Assembly (NCBI RefSeq): GCF_001027285.1
Contig: NZ_CP011509.1
Coordinates: forward strand, 10,750,501 to 10,814,500
DNA: 64,000 nt
Source: Archangium gephyra
GTDB taxonomy: Bacteria > Myxococcota > Myxococcia > Myxococcales > Myxococcaceae
Direction: 5' to 3'
The position numbers were made by a program, and so were the translations under genes. Shown piece after piece: positions 26,169 to 30,977 of the stretch. The stretch's first letter is position 1, and the number at the start of each line of letters is the position of its first letter. The notes under the pieces are model-generated. The model did not search any database. It saw only the letters and a program-made list of their open reading frames with translations, and was not told the origin of the DNA.

Positions 26169-27269
26169 ATGCCCGTCCGGGAGCTGTGGATTGAAAACTA
26201 CCGCTCGGTGCAGGCGCTGCGCTTCCCGCTCGCTCCCGTGACGGTGGTGGTGGGCCCCAACGGGAGCGGCAAGACGAACGTCTACCGCGCGTTGCAGCTG
26301 CTGCTCGCCGGCGCCGAGGGGACGCTGGCGCGCACGCTGGCCGAGGAAGGCGGAATGCCCTCCGTGCTGTGGGCGGGCCCCCGGCCCAAGAGCGCGCCGA
26401 AGTCCGCCCCGGTGCGGCTCACCGTGGGCGTGCGGCTGGAAGACCTGGCCTACGAGCTGTCCTGCGGGGTGGTGCCGCCCCCTCAAGGGCCCTTCTCGCT
26501 GGACCCGGACGTGAAGGAGGAGACGGTCTGGGTGCACGAGGGCAAGCGCCGGCACGTGGTGGCCGAGCGCAAATCCCAGAGCGTCTTCGCGCGCGACGCG
26601 GAGGGCCACCGCACCACCTTCGCGGCCCAGCTGTGGAGCAGTGAGTCCGTGCTGGCGCAGCTCTCCGAGCCCCACCGCTTCCCGCTGCTGAGCGCGCTGC
26701 GCGCGGAGCTGCTCCGCTGGCGCTTCTACCACCACTTCCGGACCGACCCGGACTCGCCCCTGCGCCACGCACAGGTGGGCGTGCGGACTCCCGCGCTCGC
26801 GCACGATGGGAGGGACCTGGCGGCGGCGTTGATGACCATCGACAACATCGGCGATGACCGCGGGCTGCACGCGGCCGTGGAGAGCGCCTTCCCCGGCTCA
26901 CGGCTGGAGCTCGACAGCGAGGACGGGCGCTTCTCCTTCCGCATGCACATGCCCGGGCTGATGCGCCCGCTGGAGGCCACGGAGCTGTCGGATGGGACGC
27001 TGCGCTACCTCTGCCTGCTCGCCGCGCTGCTGTCGCCGCGTCCCCCGCCCTTCCTCGCGCTCAACGAGCCGGAGACGAGCCTGCACCCCTCCCTGCTGGA
27101 GCCGCTGGGACGTCTCATCGCCACCGCGAGCCGGCAGGGACAGGTCTTCGTCACCACGCACGCCCAGGAGCTGGCCACCGCGCTGGAGAAGCACGCCGGA
27201 GCGTCCATCCTCCCGCTGCGCAAGGACTCGGGCGCCACGGAGCTCGAGGAGAGGGACGAGGAGCGGTGA
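26169..27269 (+). CDS. AAA ATPase (RecF/OLD-like, AAA_21 type)
   Basis: 366 aa, MPVRELWIENYRSVQALRFP. The RecF/SMC-like P loop VVVGPNGSGKTNVYRALQ is at the N terminus; the C-terminal half holds the signature and Walker B (ELSDGTLRYLCLLAALLS; FLALNEPETSLHPSLLEPLG) and the switch His in FVTTHAQEL. There is no TOPRIM domain, so it is not a complete OLD nuclease. It follows ppk2 by 3 nt, implying an operon. Some relatives take part in DNA repair or defence, but nothing next to it supports a defence role. Confidence 0.85.
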   Translation: MPVRELWIENYRSVQALRFPLAPVTVVVGPNGSGKTNVYRALQLLLAGAEGTLARTLAEEGGMPSVLWAGPRPKSAPKSAPVRLTVGVRLEDLAYELSCGVVPPPQGPFSLDPDVKEETVWVHEGKRRHVVAERKSQSVFARDAEGHRTTFAAQLWSSESVLAQLSEPHRFPLLSALRAELLRWRFYHHFRTDPDSPLRHAQVGVRTPALAHDGRDLAAALMTIDNIGDDRGLHAAVESAFPGSRLELDSEDGRFSFRMHMPGLMRPLEATELSDGTLRYLCLLAALLSPRPPPFLALNEPETSLHPSLLEPLGRLIATASRQGQVFVTTHAQELATALEKHAGASILPLRKDSGATELEERDEER

Positions 27270-27281
27270 CGCGGGGAAAAG

Positions 27282-27352
27282 TGGCAGGCCGCCAGGGAGT
27301 TGAACCCTGCACGCCCGGATTTGGAGTTCGGGCTGCTCCCGGAGCACGGCCT
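27282..27352 (-). tRNA. tRNA-Trp-like gene (anticodon CCA) with reduced D arm
   Basis: Read on the minus strand, the 71-nt element has acceptor aggccgt/gcggcct, discriminator G and encoded CCA; an anticodon arm with loop CTCCAAA (anticodon CCA, one A-C mismatch in the stem); a 5-nt variable loop; and a perfect T arm (caggg-ttcaact-ccctg). Positions 8-21 hold only 14 nt: the D arm is a 4-bp stem with a 3-nt loop (gctc-cgg-gagc), and the usual T8 A9 and GG are missing. Trp identity elements (anticodon, G73, A1-U72) persist. The acceptor helix can extend by two more pairs. It could be an extra Trp isoacceptor or a tRNA-like element. Confidence 0.75.
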
Positions 27353-27382
27353 GCATGAAGCACTGAAATGAAGGAGAAGAAG

Positions 27383-27464
27383 TGGGGACGCTGGGAGTCG
27401 AACCCAGCGGGCCATGGCTCCGGCTCTACAGGCCGGCGCGTCTTCCGTAACGCTCTACGTCCCC
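27383..27464 (-). tRNA. tRNA-Tyr-like gene (anticodon GTA), CCA not encoded
   Basis: The minus strand folds into a type II tRNA of 82 nt: acceptor ggggacg/cgtcccc, anticodon stem ccggc/gccgg with loop CTGTAGA (anticodon GTA), a 12-nt variable arm, T arm ctggg-ttcgact-cccag and discriminator A. CCA is not encoded. The D arm is odd: a 4-nt linker precedes a gcgt/acgc stem. G1-C72, A73 and the long variable arm match bacterial tRNA-Tyr identity. It lies 30 nt upstream of the Trp-like gene on the same strand; the two are probably cotranscribed. Confidence 0.75.
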
Positions 27465-27470
27465 AGAAGG

Positions 27471-27490
27471 GTGAGGCGGGACCGCCTCAC
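27471..27490. other. Short hairpin between the 22-codon ORF and the tRNA-like genes
   Basis: Perfect 8-bp arms gtgaggcg/cgcctcac with a 4-nt loop, located 17 nt after the ORF's stop codon and 6 nt before the tRNA-Tyr-like 5' end. It has no T-tract, so it may be a processing or attenuation structure rather than a terminator. Confidence 0.5.
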
Positions 27491-27507
27491 GTCTGGGAGG
27501 CGGAGCA

Positions 27508-27576: not shown

Positions 27577-27923
27577 CGTCACCGCTCCTTTCACCCAGAA
27601 AAGACGCCGAGGACCGGTAATCCTGACGCGGTATTTTCCGGGCTCGGAGCCCGTCTCCTGGCCTGTCGCAACCCAGGACAGCTCCGTCCGAAAACAGGAC
27701 ACCCCTGATTGAGTGGTTTCAACCCATTGAAATCAGGAGCCTCTCCCCATCGCGTGTAAACCCGCTCTACATCCGGAAGGTCCCGGGGCGTGACATACTT
27801 GCTCCACAAAATTAAAACATGAAGCCGCAACCTTCGGAGTTCCAAGCATTTACGGGGTTGGCGCGTTCCCTGCTTTAGCGAGGGCCGTCCGAGGGCACAC
27901 CGCCGTCGGTCAGGAGATACCCC
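27577..27923. promoter_or_regulatory. Divergent intergenic region, 22-codon ORF / M4 protease
   Basis: About 350 bp of lower-GC DNA without a supported gene. It should hold the minus-strand promoter for the small ORF and tRNA-like genes and the plus-strand promoter for the protease. The most AT-rich part, around 27800-27822 (cacaaaattaaaacatgaag), is the likeliest protease promoter zone. I cannot assign -10/-35 boxes with confidence. Confidence 0.4.
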
Positions 27924-29795
27924 GTGATCCGCACCCGCTTCCTTGCTGCCGCGCTGTTCGCGATTCCCCTCGCCGCGTGCGAGGTCGACCACTCGCAGCT
28001 GCCCGAAGGCGCCCCCAAGTCCGACGAGGCCGCCGACTCGCTCGGTGACGTGCGCGCCGCGCTCGCCGCGCTGCCCTCGGCCGAGGTCGTTGGCGCCAAC
28101 GACGATGGCGTGCCCTTCATGCTCAAGGGCTCGCTGGACAACGTGAACGGCCTGCAGGGCATCGCCGCGGCCTTCCGCCTCGAGGCCTCCGATCTGGTGA
28201 TGACGCGCACCAGCGTGGACGAGCAGGGCAACTCGCACATCCGCTACAGCCAGACCAAGAACGGCCTGCCGGTGGTGGGGGGCGAGCTCATCATCCACAA
28301 GGATCCGAGCGGCAAGATCTTCATGGCCAACGGCTCGGCGCGTGACGGCGAGCTCGTCCCGGCCAAGGCGCGCATCTCCGGCGAGGCCGCCAAGGCCGCC
28401 GCCCTGGACAACACCGTGGGCCGCCACATCGCCACCGAGGGCGAGGCCCGCCTGGTGTACATCCGCTCCGAGAAGGACGGCCGTCTGCGGCTGGCCTACG
28501 AGGTGGTGGTGACGGGCGAGGGCGCGGAGCTGCCCATCCGTGACCACGTCTTCGTCAACGCGCTGACCGGCGCCATCGAGGACACCACCACGGAGATCCA
28601 CTCGGCGAAGAACCGCGCGGTGTACTCGGCCAACAACGGCACCAGCCTGCCCGGTACCCTCAAGCGCTCCGAGGGCGGCGCCGTCACCGGCGACACCCAC
28701 GTGGACATCAACTACGACCACCTGGGCACCACCTACGACTGCTACAGCGTGAACTTCGGCCGTGACTCGTACAACGGCGCGGGCGCGCAGCTGCGCAGCA
28801 CGGTGCACTACAGCAGCAACTACACCAACGCCTTCTGGAACGGCACCCAGATGGTGTACGGCGACAGCAACGGCGTGGACTCCGCGCCGCTGGGCAAGTC
28901 GCTGGACGTGACGGTGCACGAGCTGACGCACGCGGTGACCAGCTCCGAGTCCAACCTCACCTACTCCAACGAGTCGGGCGCCCTCAACGAGGGCCTGAGC
29001 GACATCTTCGGCGCCTACTGCGAGTCGTGGAAGCGCGGCTGGGTGGTGGACGCGGCGGTGTGGATGGTGGGCGACGACGTGTGGACGCCGAACACCCCGG
29101 GTGACGCGCTCCGCTACATGGCCAACCCCACGCAGGATGGCTCGTCCAAGGACTACTACCCCACGCGCTACACGGGGACGTCCGACAACGGCGGTGTGCA
29201 CTGGAACTCGGGTATCGCCAACCTGGCCTTCAAGCTGCTCACCACGGGCGGCACGCACCCGCGCGGCGTGACCACCACCAACGTCACGGGCATCGGCATC
29301 CAGAAGGCCGGCCAGATCTTCTACCGCGCCAACCGTGACCTGATGACGGCCTCCACCACCTTCGCCCAGGCGAAGACGTACACGGAGCAGGCGGCGACGC
29401 AGCTGGGCTACACCACGGCCGAGGTCGCCTCCGTGTCGGCGGCCTGGACGGCGGTGGGCGTGGGCGCCTCGACGCCTCCGGCGACCTCCACGGCGCTGAC
29501 CAACAACGTGGCGATCACCGGCATCTCGGGCGCCTCGGCCTCGCTGAAGTACTACCACCTGGACGTGCCGGCCAGCCGGGCGGTGACCTTCACGATGAGC
29601 GGCGGCACGGGTGACGCGGACATGTACGTGAAGTACGGCTCGCAGCCGAGCACCTCCTCGTACGACTGCCGTCCGTACCTCACGGGCAACAACGAGACGT
29701 GCTCCTTCGCCGCGAAGACCACCTCCGGCCGCTACCACGTGATGCTGCGCGGCTACACCTCGTACTCCAGCACCTCGCTCAAGGGCGCGTACTAG
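27924..29795 (+). CDS. Secreted M4 (thermolysin-family) metalloprotease with C-terminal PPC domain
   Basis: 623 aa. Signal of lipoprotein type (MIRTRFLAAALFAIPLAAC), then the FTP/PepSY propeptide (SHIRYSQTKNGLPVVGGELI) that chaperones folding, then the M4 catalytic domain with zinc ligands His332 and His336 and catalytic Glu333 in VTVHELTHAV, third ligand Glu356 in GALNEGLSDIFGAY, exactly 24 residues after the first His as in thermolysin. Substrate-binding GGVHWNSGIANLAF follows. The C-terminal 100 residues are a bacterial pre-peptidase (PPC) beta-sandwich with TGDADMYVKYGSQPSTSSYD. The enzyme is likely processed and released to degrade extracellular protein, fitting a predatory or scavenging lifestyle. 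Confidence 0.96.
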   Translation: MIRTRFLAAALFAIPLAACEVDHSQLPEGAPKSDEAADSLGDVRAALAALPSAEVVGANDDGVPFMLKGSLDNVNGLQGIAAAFRLEASDLVMTRTSVDEQGNSHIRYSQTKNGLPVVGGELIIHKDPSGKIFMANGSARDGELVPAKARISGEAAKAAALDNTVGRHIATEGEARLVYIRSEKDGRLRLAYEVVVTGEGAELPIRDHVFVNALTGAIEDTTTEIHSAKNRAVYSANNGTSLPGTLKRSEGGAVTGDTHVDINYDHLGTTYDCYSVNFGRDSYNGAGAQLRSTVHYSSNYTNAFWNGTQMVYGDSNGVDSAPLGKSLDVTVHELTHAVTSSESNLTYSNESGALNEGLSDIFGAYCESWKRGWVVDAAVWMVGDDVWTPNTPGDALRYMANPTQDGSSKDYYPTRYTGTSDNGGVHWNSGIANLAFKLLTTGGTHPRGVTTTNVTGIGIQKAGQIFYRANRDLMTASTTFAQAKTYTEQAATQLGYTTAEVASVSAAWTAVGVGASTPPATSTALTNNVAITGISGASASLKYYHLDVPASRAVTFTMSGGTGDADMYVKYGSQPSTSSYDCRPYLTGNNETCSFAAKTTSGRYHVMLRGYTSYSSTSLKGAY

Positions 29796-29879: not shown

Positions 29880-30902
29880 TCACCAGGCCAGGCCGTCCAG
29901 CACGTCGGCGAGGGTGGTGGCACTCAAGGAACGGTCGAACCAGAGGTCGAGGGTCGTCAGGTCCGAGCAGGTGAGGATGCGCTGGCGGGCGGCCTCATCG
30001 ACCTGCACGCCCCGCTTGGAGAGGATTCGCAGGACGTCCTCGGCACGCCCTCGGCTCAATCCTTGCTGCAACCCCTGAGCCAGACCTTTCTCCAAGCCCT
30101 GCTGGATTCCCCGCTCGATCATCTCCTCGGCCCAGCTGCCCATCAGCTCCTCCGCTCGCTGCTCATCCAACACCGAATGTAACACCCGCCTCGCCGCGGT
30201 GTGGACGGCCGCATCCCCTACCCACACCAGGTAACGGATGACGACCACCAGATGCTCGGCTCCCTCGGCGTCCGCGTGCACCTGCGCGAAGAGCGTCACC
30301 CAGTCCGGCAGCTTCCGGGCCAGTTCCCCGGTGCGTCCGTAACGCAACACCAGCCAGGCCAGCCGGGCCAACGGCGGTCCGGAGCGCGCGCTCAGCGCCT
30401 CTTCGCGCTCGGCCGTCAGGTCATCGAGCAGGTACTCGAAACGAGGGACCAGCGCTCGCCATCGCTCCCGCTCCTCCCGTGGCAGGTCGAAGAGGTCCTC
30501 CACCCGGCGCGGCGCCGTCCAGGCGCCATCCGGCCCGTGGTACATGACGAGCGGGATGATGAGGGGCAGCCGCGTGTGCTCCGGGTGCTCCGTCCGCCAC
30601 CGCTCCACCTGGCGCACCACGTAGCGCAGCATGCGGAGCGCCATCCATCGGTCCACCGACGACTGGTGCTCCAGCAAGACATACAGCAGTAGCGACTGAC
30701 CCGTGCGCATCCGTGCCGTGAAGAGCAGGTCGCTCTCGGTCTCGCGCAACTCCGGGTCCACCACGCTGCCAGGCTCTCGCCGCAGGGACGCCCAGTCCAC
30801 CTCCGAGACGACATATGCGGGCAGCACGGCGCGCAGTTCGGCGGCGGCCCGCTCGGGGTGGCCGAAGGTGTAGCGGGCGAAGAGATCATGCGGTCCAGAC
30901 AT
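29880..30902 (-). CDS. Rpn/YhgA-like PD-(D/E)XK nuclease family protein
   Basis: 340 aa from ATG 30902; an upstream in-frame TTG is possible. N-terminal GPHDLFARYTFGHPERAAAE and the PD-(D/E)XK core ESDLLFTARMRTGQSLLLYV then LLEHQSS (Asp...ExQ) are typical of Rpn recombination-promoting nucleases once labelled putative transposases. The C terminus has a Gln/Gly/Leu repeat (IQQGLEKGLAQGLQQGLSRG), common in the family, which is where some members start internally to make short regulatory forms. It is not an insertion sequence: no inverted repeats flank it. It lies 75 nt downstream of the PEGA gene, possibly on the same transcript. Confidence 0.88.
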   Translation of the reverse strand: MSGPHDLFARYTFGHPERAAAELRAVLPAYVVSEVDWASLRREPGSVVDPELRETESDLLFTARMRTGQSLLLYVLLEHQSSVDRWMALRMLRYVVRQVERWRTEHPEHTRLPLIIPLVMYHGPDGAWTAPRRVEDLFDLPREERERWRALVPRFEYLLDDLTAEREEALSARSGPPLARLAWLVLRYGRTGELARKLPDWVTLFAQVHADAEGAEHLVVVIRYLVWVGDAAVHTAARRVLHSVLDEQRAEELMGSWAEEMIERGIQQGLEKGLAQGLQQGLSRGRAEDVLRILSKRGVQVDEAARQRILTCSDLTTLDLWFDRSLSATTLADVLDGLAW

Positions 30903-30977
30903 GGCCGCCGCGCCCAAAGCATGTGGCGGGCCAAGGCCGATATGCGGCCCTCTGGGCTACGAGATGACGTCCCTGGC

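Follow-up and report, generated by a model that had tools for sequence, protein, structure and literature searches.

What accounts for a pair of closely spaced tRNA genes with abnormal D arms on the chromosome of Archangium gephyra? The window, a stretch of 64,000 nucleotides from this genome, carries on its minus strand an array-type tRNA-Tyr(GTA) with a shifted D arm (27382..27464) and a tRNA-Trp(CCA) with a conserved mini D arm, composed of a 4-bp stem and a 3-nt loop (27282..27352). The original prediction, made from the sequence alone, had described two tRNA-shaped elements on this strand; ARAGORN recovers both, and the Rfam tRNA model (RF00005) also detects the tRNA-Tyr, at 42.8 bits (cut-off 29) in both a small-region scan and a whole-genome search. 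A fast Rfam scan of the whole window listed neither tRNA. The tRNA-Trp is likewise missing from the whole-genome RF00005 search at E-values up to 1, where it falls short of the cut-off of 29 bits, and in the small-region scan it gives only a sub-threshold match to tRNA-Sec (27.1 bits, cut-off 47). Examination of the tRNA-Trp reveals that its acceptor and anticodon stems are separated by 14 nt, constituted entirely by the D stem GCTC/GAGC and its 3-nt loop, with no linker, no T8/A9 and no GG, exactly as had been stated. The claimed shift of the tRNA-Tyr D stem agrees with a 2-nt insertion 5' of this stem in the Rfam alignment. Both tRNAs keep their anticodons and discriminator bases (G73 in tRNA-Trp and A73 in tRNA-Tyr). 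The other Trp and Tyr tRNAs of the genome, with which the original prediction proposed a comparison, have ordinary D arms as read; by eye, the housekeeping tRNA-Trp (L292) has an apparent T-T mismatch atop its anticodon stem. A tRNA-Trp with a 4-bp stem is reported, in the accessible part of PMC13092985, to be more prominent in Myxococcota.

A pattern for the mini-D tRNA-Trp, allowing at most one mismatch, matches 46 of 195 Myxococcota genomes. All of these lie in the family of the window (46/96 genomes within it against 0/99 outside), and the reversed control pattern yields no match; given this confinement and the empty control, the pattern is not due to chance. The proposed search in related myxobacteria thus recovers the form in nearly half of the family genomes, and the claim of selection on pairing proves right. 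All 17 distinct sequences retain the four D-stem pairs, and one pair switches between A-T (6 sequences) and T-A (11), a compensatory change, though a few irregularities exist: in the anticodon stem, 4/17 have A-C at one position and 1/17 has A-A at another, and 8 of the 46 genomes have the D stem GCTT..GAGC and hence a T-G pair. With the D stem kept and compensated, decay of the tRNA-Trp is rejected. Both tRNAs of the pair are real, and they are conserved rather than decaying.

The context of the pair is provided by a leader ORF and a promoter-like element upstream, both absent from the original prediction. Reading along the minus strand, the promoter-like element GTCAGG-N15-CGTC, which motif comparison finds in almost all related units (27603..27627), is followed by a ribosome-binding region, GAAAGGAGCGG, that family comparison shows to be near-invariant (27582..27592), and by a 22-codon leader ORF, MKTTNLQHSNSRSPWRRYRRLF, recognized as an ORF and through leader-cargo matching, which contains Trp and Tyr codons (27576-27508). 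In the same 12.49-Mb genome the ribosome-binding region and start recur exactly at three more sites, and each time a leader ORF and tRNAs come next, with arrays of 15 tRNAs (L007) and of 4 and 5 tRNAs (both L008). Directly 3' of the 15-tRNA array lies an HNH endonuclease gene (L007:3867-4409, minus strand). Compared to L007, the window unit keeps the promoter-like element, the ribosome-binding region and the Trp/Tyr codons and is without the terminator segment, leaving two overlapping hairpins: the post-stop hairpin CCGCCTC/GAGGCGG (27482..27503, minus strand), a counterpart of the pre-terminator hairpin in L007-type units, and an alternative hairpin, GTGAGGCG/CGCCTCAC, that uses the same GAGGCGG arm and has no U-run (27471..27490, minus strand). 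Hence, between the leader ORF and the tRNAs of the window unit the family-type intrinsic terminator is absent, and only other hairpins lacking a U-run are seen. Because of this absence the control of the window unit is uncertain; it is probably relaxed or exerted via the alternative hairpin. A T-box riboswitch as the leader is ruled out, as Rfam gives no T-box match at cut-off in the window or in L007, L008, L081 and L071, and none up to E 1 in the small region. Two neighboring genes deserve mention: a gene for an AAA ATPase (26169-27269, plus strand; PF13304) with an AbiEii-like annotation, which is convergent with the tRNAs and resembles many defence ATPases, and one for a YhgA-like transposase (29880-30917, minus strand; PF04754).

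An exact scan for the motif of these units across 84,980 species genomes returned 99 stretches, and among the 80 loci read from them a short leader followed by same-strand tRNAs is seen only in myxobacterial loci. With up to one mismatch the motif is present in 50 of 96 family genomes and in one of 99 Myxococcota genomes outside the family, this one without a unit, and with up to two mismatches in 71 of the 96; some of these matches are not units. Myxobacterial motif loci without tRNAs are L067, where the ORF runs on, and the second locus of L125, recovered as L188. Defining a unit by an ORF 10-90 aa long whose first tRNA is at most 600 nt away, counting tRNAs across gaps of at most 400 nt and collapsing units with identical first 300 nt, we collected 104 distinct units from the scanned loci and fetched stretches (those yielding no unit include L200, L201, L281, L282, L283 and L285). 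Their leaders span 22-62 aa and are linked to between 1 and 26 tRNAs, 625 in total; carriers include Archangium, Myxococcus, Pyxidicoccus, Hyalangium and Corallococcus. Four units with 23-26 tRNAs (L072, L081, L229 and L232, of which L081 packs 25 into 2.2 kb) are tRNA array units as defined, in the accessible part of PMC5966550, by 20 or more tRNAs at 2 or more per kb; the window unit, with 2 tRNAs, lies below this definition. One genome contains a sister unit that looks split (L187 and L344), with the leader and a tRNA-Tyr that appears truncated by eye, a tRNA-Arg and a phage-type integrase (PF00589), and with the mini-D tRNA-Trp about 13 kb from the leader part.

The units share a common order: a promoter-like element, a fixed ribosome-binding site, the leader ORF, mostly a terminator hairpin, and then the tRNAs, so that a short ORF with its ribosome-binding site precedes the tRNA genes throughout the family. 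The promoter-like element, GTCAGG-N15/16-CGT (mostly CGTC or CGTA), lies 51-53 nt 5' of the leader ATG in 103 of the 104 units. The A. gephyra genome has 18 exact sites for it against 3 in controls, and only 4 of the 18 precede tRNAs. A similar element is found at 3 of 22 first tRNAs of transcripts in the 200 nt examined. These 22 include the first tRNA of the L007 array, where the element is more distant than 200 nt. Our first thought, that the element marks an alternative sigma factor, is made less certain by the 4/18 and 3/22 counts. One of the three is a leaderless array of Ile, Val, Ala and Ala tRNAs (L382, 8185468-8185838, plus strand), situated right behind the element with no leader ORF or attenuator between. 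At L374 (about 1126280-1126686, minus strand) the element is followed by tRNA-like sequences seemingly broken by inserts; in 620 nt plain ARAGORN finds no tRNA here, and Rfam gives one match of 163 nt.

Between leader and first tRNA, 99 of the 104 units contain an intrinsic terminator hairpin of the GGCCGGG...CCCGGCC type, with a mean of -27.8 kcal/mol; the window unit and 4 others are without it. The T tract is often poor, its longest run being at least 3 in 71 of the 99 and at least 4 in 37. For the stage at which the 3' arm is not yet made, 8 leader families were folded, and in 7 of them the consensus pairs the last leader codons, mostly together with the stop codon, with the terminator 5' arm around a variable hairpin; the L092 family gives only a poor fold, none in common emerges when 27 clusters are aligned, and double-sided changes of a pair are rare (0-2 per leader family). 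The pairing of leader end and 5' arm is better in native than in swapped combinations (z -5.2 over 53 units, -4.1 over 27 units and -2.0 over 15 families), the last comparison being weak, with 517 of 20000 swaps. This helix reaches the stop codon in 95 of the 99 units, and with the ribosome stalled and the 3' arm not yet made, pairing to the leader end takes up more than 40% of the 5' arm region in 88 of them. When synonymous codons are redrawn for the 10 codons at the end of the leader, the pairing is equally strong (-16.5 vs -16.5 kcal/mol), and only 4 of 53 units rank in the best 5%. The predicted equilibrium probability of the terminator averages 0.75 in the stalled state and 0.99 with the ribosome at the stop codon; as the terminator still dominates at equilibrium, the switch would have to be kinetic. 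By computation, the family has a mutually exclusive antiterminator, for which the synonymous-codon test is negative. By their anatomy these units strongly suggest ribosome-mediated attenuation, with the ribosome presumably stalling in the leader.

Leader and tRNAs are also linked through the codons. A cargo amino acid is present in its own leader in 531 of 534 unit-amino-acid pairs; of the three that fail, two concern Glu (L072 and L232) and one Tyr (L257). All 108 pairs of a later batch match, including 4 with leaders that the first set also contained (L327 and L329), two of its loci (L333 and L337) having no tRNAs; being mostly Myxococcus, this batch is not independent by descent. Across 57 leader clusters, each represented by its most tRNA-rich unit, the leader contains 99.7% of the cargo amino acids, a share that falls to 82.5% once cargo is shuffled between units. 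The corresponding z is 8.0 and remains 5.6 for 28 clusters and 4.3 for 16 families, with 0/20000 permutations each time; random representatives give 4.6-5.7 and 3.1-4.3 at the latter two levels. Among the sense frames, this signal is specific to the leader frame: in the 57 clusters the +1 and +2 frames give z of 0.3 and 1.7, and the antisense frames 1.4, 3.8 and 2.2, the highest dropping to 2.1 at 16 families. Permutation within families also yields z 5.5 for the leader frame (0/5000), against -0.3 and -0.5 for the shifted sense frames. In terms of codons, one that the tRNA can read is present in the own leader for 348 of 380 cargo anticodons, compared to 330.8 +/- 4.0 with synonymous codons redrawn (1000 draws, maximum 342); the 32 misses include 11 of Gly-CCC (GGG) and 8 of Arg-CCT (AGG). 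Thus, the regulatory codons of the 104-unit family match the genes they precede. Examples are the Glu-Glu-Arg-Val arrays with the leader RGIAVLFANTEQDTASEEDEFLEG, the Pro-Leu-Asn arrays with NPNPLPDPVPAP and the Glu-Asp-Gly-Leu arrays with LDTALDLLLGLEPTGGL.

The matching is one-way, as many leader amino acids are without a cargo tRNA, a count that is an upper bound given that ARAGORN may miss deviant tRNAs. Ser is in every one of the 57 leader representatives and never in the cargo. The Tyr codons of these representatives are 32 TAT and 11 TAC, a bias through which they may respond more readily when tRNA is short. Changes in leader and cargo can also be followed between close relatives. In the window-type sister units L133 and L079, neither of which has an intact tRNA-Tyr, WRRYRRLF in the leader has become WRRSRRLF, and L133 retains another Tyr codon further up (HPYIR). 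Within the Corallococcus-type Trp/Tyr group of 11 units, a Tyr codon precedes the leader end in all 4 with tRNA-Tyr, and the 7 Trp-only units have Phe or Leu there in 3 and Tyr in 3, L214 differing across the whole stretch. It seems, then, that the cargo tRNA is lost first and the leader codon later.

The array tRNAs diverge from the rest of the tRNA complement. In A. gephyra there are 26 distinct array tRNAs, and every array anticodon also occurs among 49 other distinct tRNAs, which were read from 50 further loci and include the leaderless array. Aligned to the nearest tRNA of the same amino acid, array tRNAs score 0.44-0.85 per base, and some score low in the genome-wide Rfam tRNA search. 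Bacterial tRNA-Leu normally has a long variable arm, which the array Leu tRNAs lack by eye.

Together, these observations lead us to propose, with a probability of about 0.8, that the pair in the window represents a small unit within a family of reserve tRNA arrays that sense tRNA loss and are controlled by attenuators. As read from the sequences, a unit combines a promoter-like element, a leader ORF with codons that its own array tRNAs read, mostly a terminator, a possible mutually exclusive pairing, and tRNAs that are conserved but divergent and whose anticodons also occur at other loci of the genome. With the cargo tRNAs plentiful, the ribosome would reach the stop codon and cover the leader end, and the terminator would form. 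Were any one of them missing, the ribosome would stall upstream; because the terminator 5' arm is able to pair with the last leader codons and the stop, the stall should release the tRNA genes, allowing read-through into the array, whose tRNAs would then be charged and used. The trigger is probably tRNA loss, for example through tRNA-cutting toxins or defence systems, rather than amino-acid hunger, which more tRNA would not cure. This reading is motivated by phage tRNAs that, in the accessible parts of PMC10264068, PMC11555353 and PMC13096335, are reported to replace tRNAs, including tRNA-Tyr, destroyed by tRNA-cutting defences. More tentatively, and with somewhat less than even odds, the arrays might constitute a chromosomal translation-rescue system: a deviant second tRNA set, shaped to escape tRNA-cutting enzymes, that is kept silent and released unit by unit by leaders detecting destroyed tRNAs. 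Escape features would then be the odd D arm of the tRNA-Trp and the missing long variable arm of the Leu tRNAs.

Classic attenuators of this anatomy sense amino-acid shortage, and the leaders here might do the same, sensing uncharged tRNA, with the arrays adding further uncharged tRNA (e.g. for the stringent response) or decoding capacity. The match of leader codons to cargo fits this, but extra tRNA is no cure for lack of an amino acid, Ser is never in the cargo, and up to 26 tRNAs of many amino acids are mixed in one unit; we hence regard hunger sensing as unlikely. The original prediction had instead suggested, as speculation, a role of the pair as aminoacyl donors for chemistry outside the ribosome, in line with an unusual D arm alongside a conserved acceptor, T arm and anticodon. 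This finds no support: codon matching implies decoding, the largest arrays cover most amino acids, and the six neighboring ORFs scanned contain no tRNA-dependent ligase or cyclodipeptide-synthase domain that could use such donors. Given that the pair sits behind the leader ORF of a family whose codons match its cargo, sensing by translating ribosomes is favored, and a donor role appears very unlikely.

The duller alternative of the original prediction, decayed surplus tRNA genes, can be extended to remnants of a mobile element in which leader and tRNAs are linked by descent only. Array content does vary, one array is broken by an integrase-bearing insert, and low scores of some array tRNAs and some anticodon-stem mismatches point the same way. 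However, the fully paired and compensated D stem, the co-change of leader and cargo within families and the near-universal promoter-like element speak against this, and we reject decay as highly improbable. A plasmid or phage origin is also rejected: the window unit has no plasmid match, none of 5 viral contigs with the motif has a tRNA behind it, and blastn of the L007 array against phages gives at most 20% query cover, on tRNA genes, among the 10 matches listed of 905. Least probable of all, in our estimate, is that the leader peptide is itself a secreted or modified product whose synthesis the tRNAs support. Recurring leader starts and ends (MTT..SPMN, PPGL) and a divergent upstream gene for a thermolysin-type M4 peptidase (27924-29795, plus strand) would suit such a product, but the conserved ends are also where the RNA pairing region lies, leader composition changes with the cargo, and the six ORFs scanned contain no other peptide-processing domain.

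We therefore return to reserve arrays released upon tRNA loss as the favored explanation. The operon type is real, conserved and apparently undescribed; its anatomy strongly suggests the mechanism, and its purpose is inferred. Textbook leader-peptide attenuation governs amino-acid synthesis; here it apparently governs tRNA genes themselves, in a closed loop where sensor codons and products would be the same tRNAs. Every leader hints at the tRNAs whose loss the cell anticipates, and this makes the old problem of the purpose of surplus bacterial tRNA arrays directly testable. The window additionally provides an example of a conserved bacterial tRNA with a collapsed D arm.

The leader peptides of the trp, his and ilv operons mediate ribosome-dependent transcription attenuation of biosynthesis, and the present units resemble them in having a short ORF with regulatory codons, a terminator and a mutually exclusive antiterminator. 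Unlike them, these units would control tRNA genes rather than biosynthesis, one leader would sense many amino acids, the antiterminator includes the stop codon, and the cargo and the sensed tRNAs are the same set. In the open-licence literature searched, no paper combines 'tRNA array' with 'leader peptide', and the matches listed include no tRNA genes under leader-peptide attenuation. The closest system found is the trn operon of Anabaena, which according to the accessible part of PMC10272220 holds 26 extra tRNAs that are reported to be silent and switched on by translational stress. It is similarly a reserve tRNA array beside housekeeping tRNAs, but is controlled by a repressor protein, TrcR, with no leader peptide described in that part of the source. 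The arrays of mycobacteria and of their plasmids and phages are likewise dense clusters of extra, partly deviant tRNAs, for which the accessible parts of PMC5966550 and PMC12803027 suggest an anti-defence role; the former also mentions endonucleases near the mycobacterial arrays. These differ in being defined by 20 or more tRNAs (PMC5966550), and the words 'leader' and 'promoter' do not occur in PMC5966550, nor 'promoter' or 'attenuat' in PMC12803027. Finally, the anti-defence tRNAs of phages, as far as the accessible texts describe them, are phage-borne, whereas the units described here reside on bacterial chromosomes and appear to be placed under the control of their own leaders.
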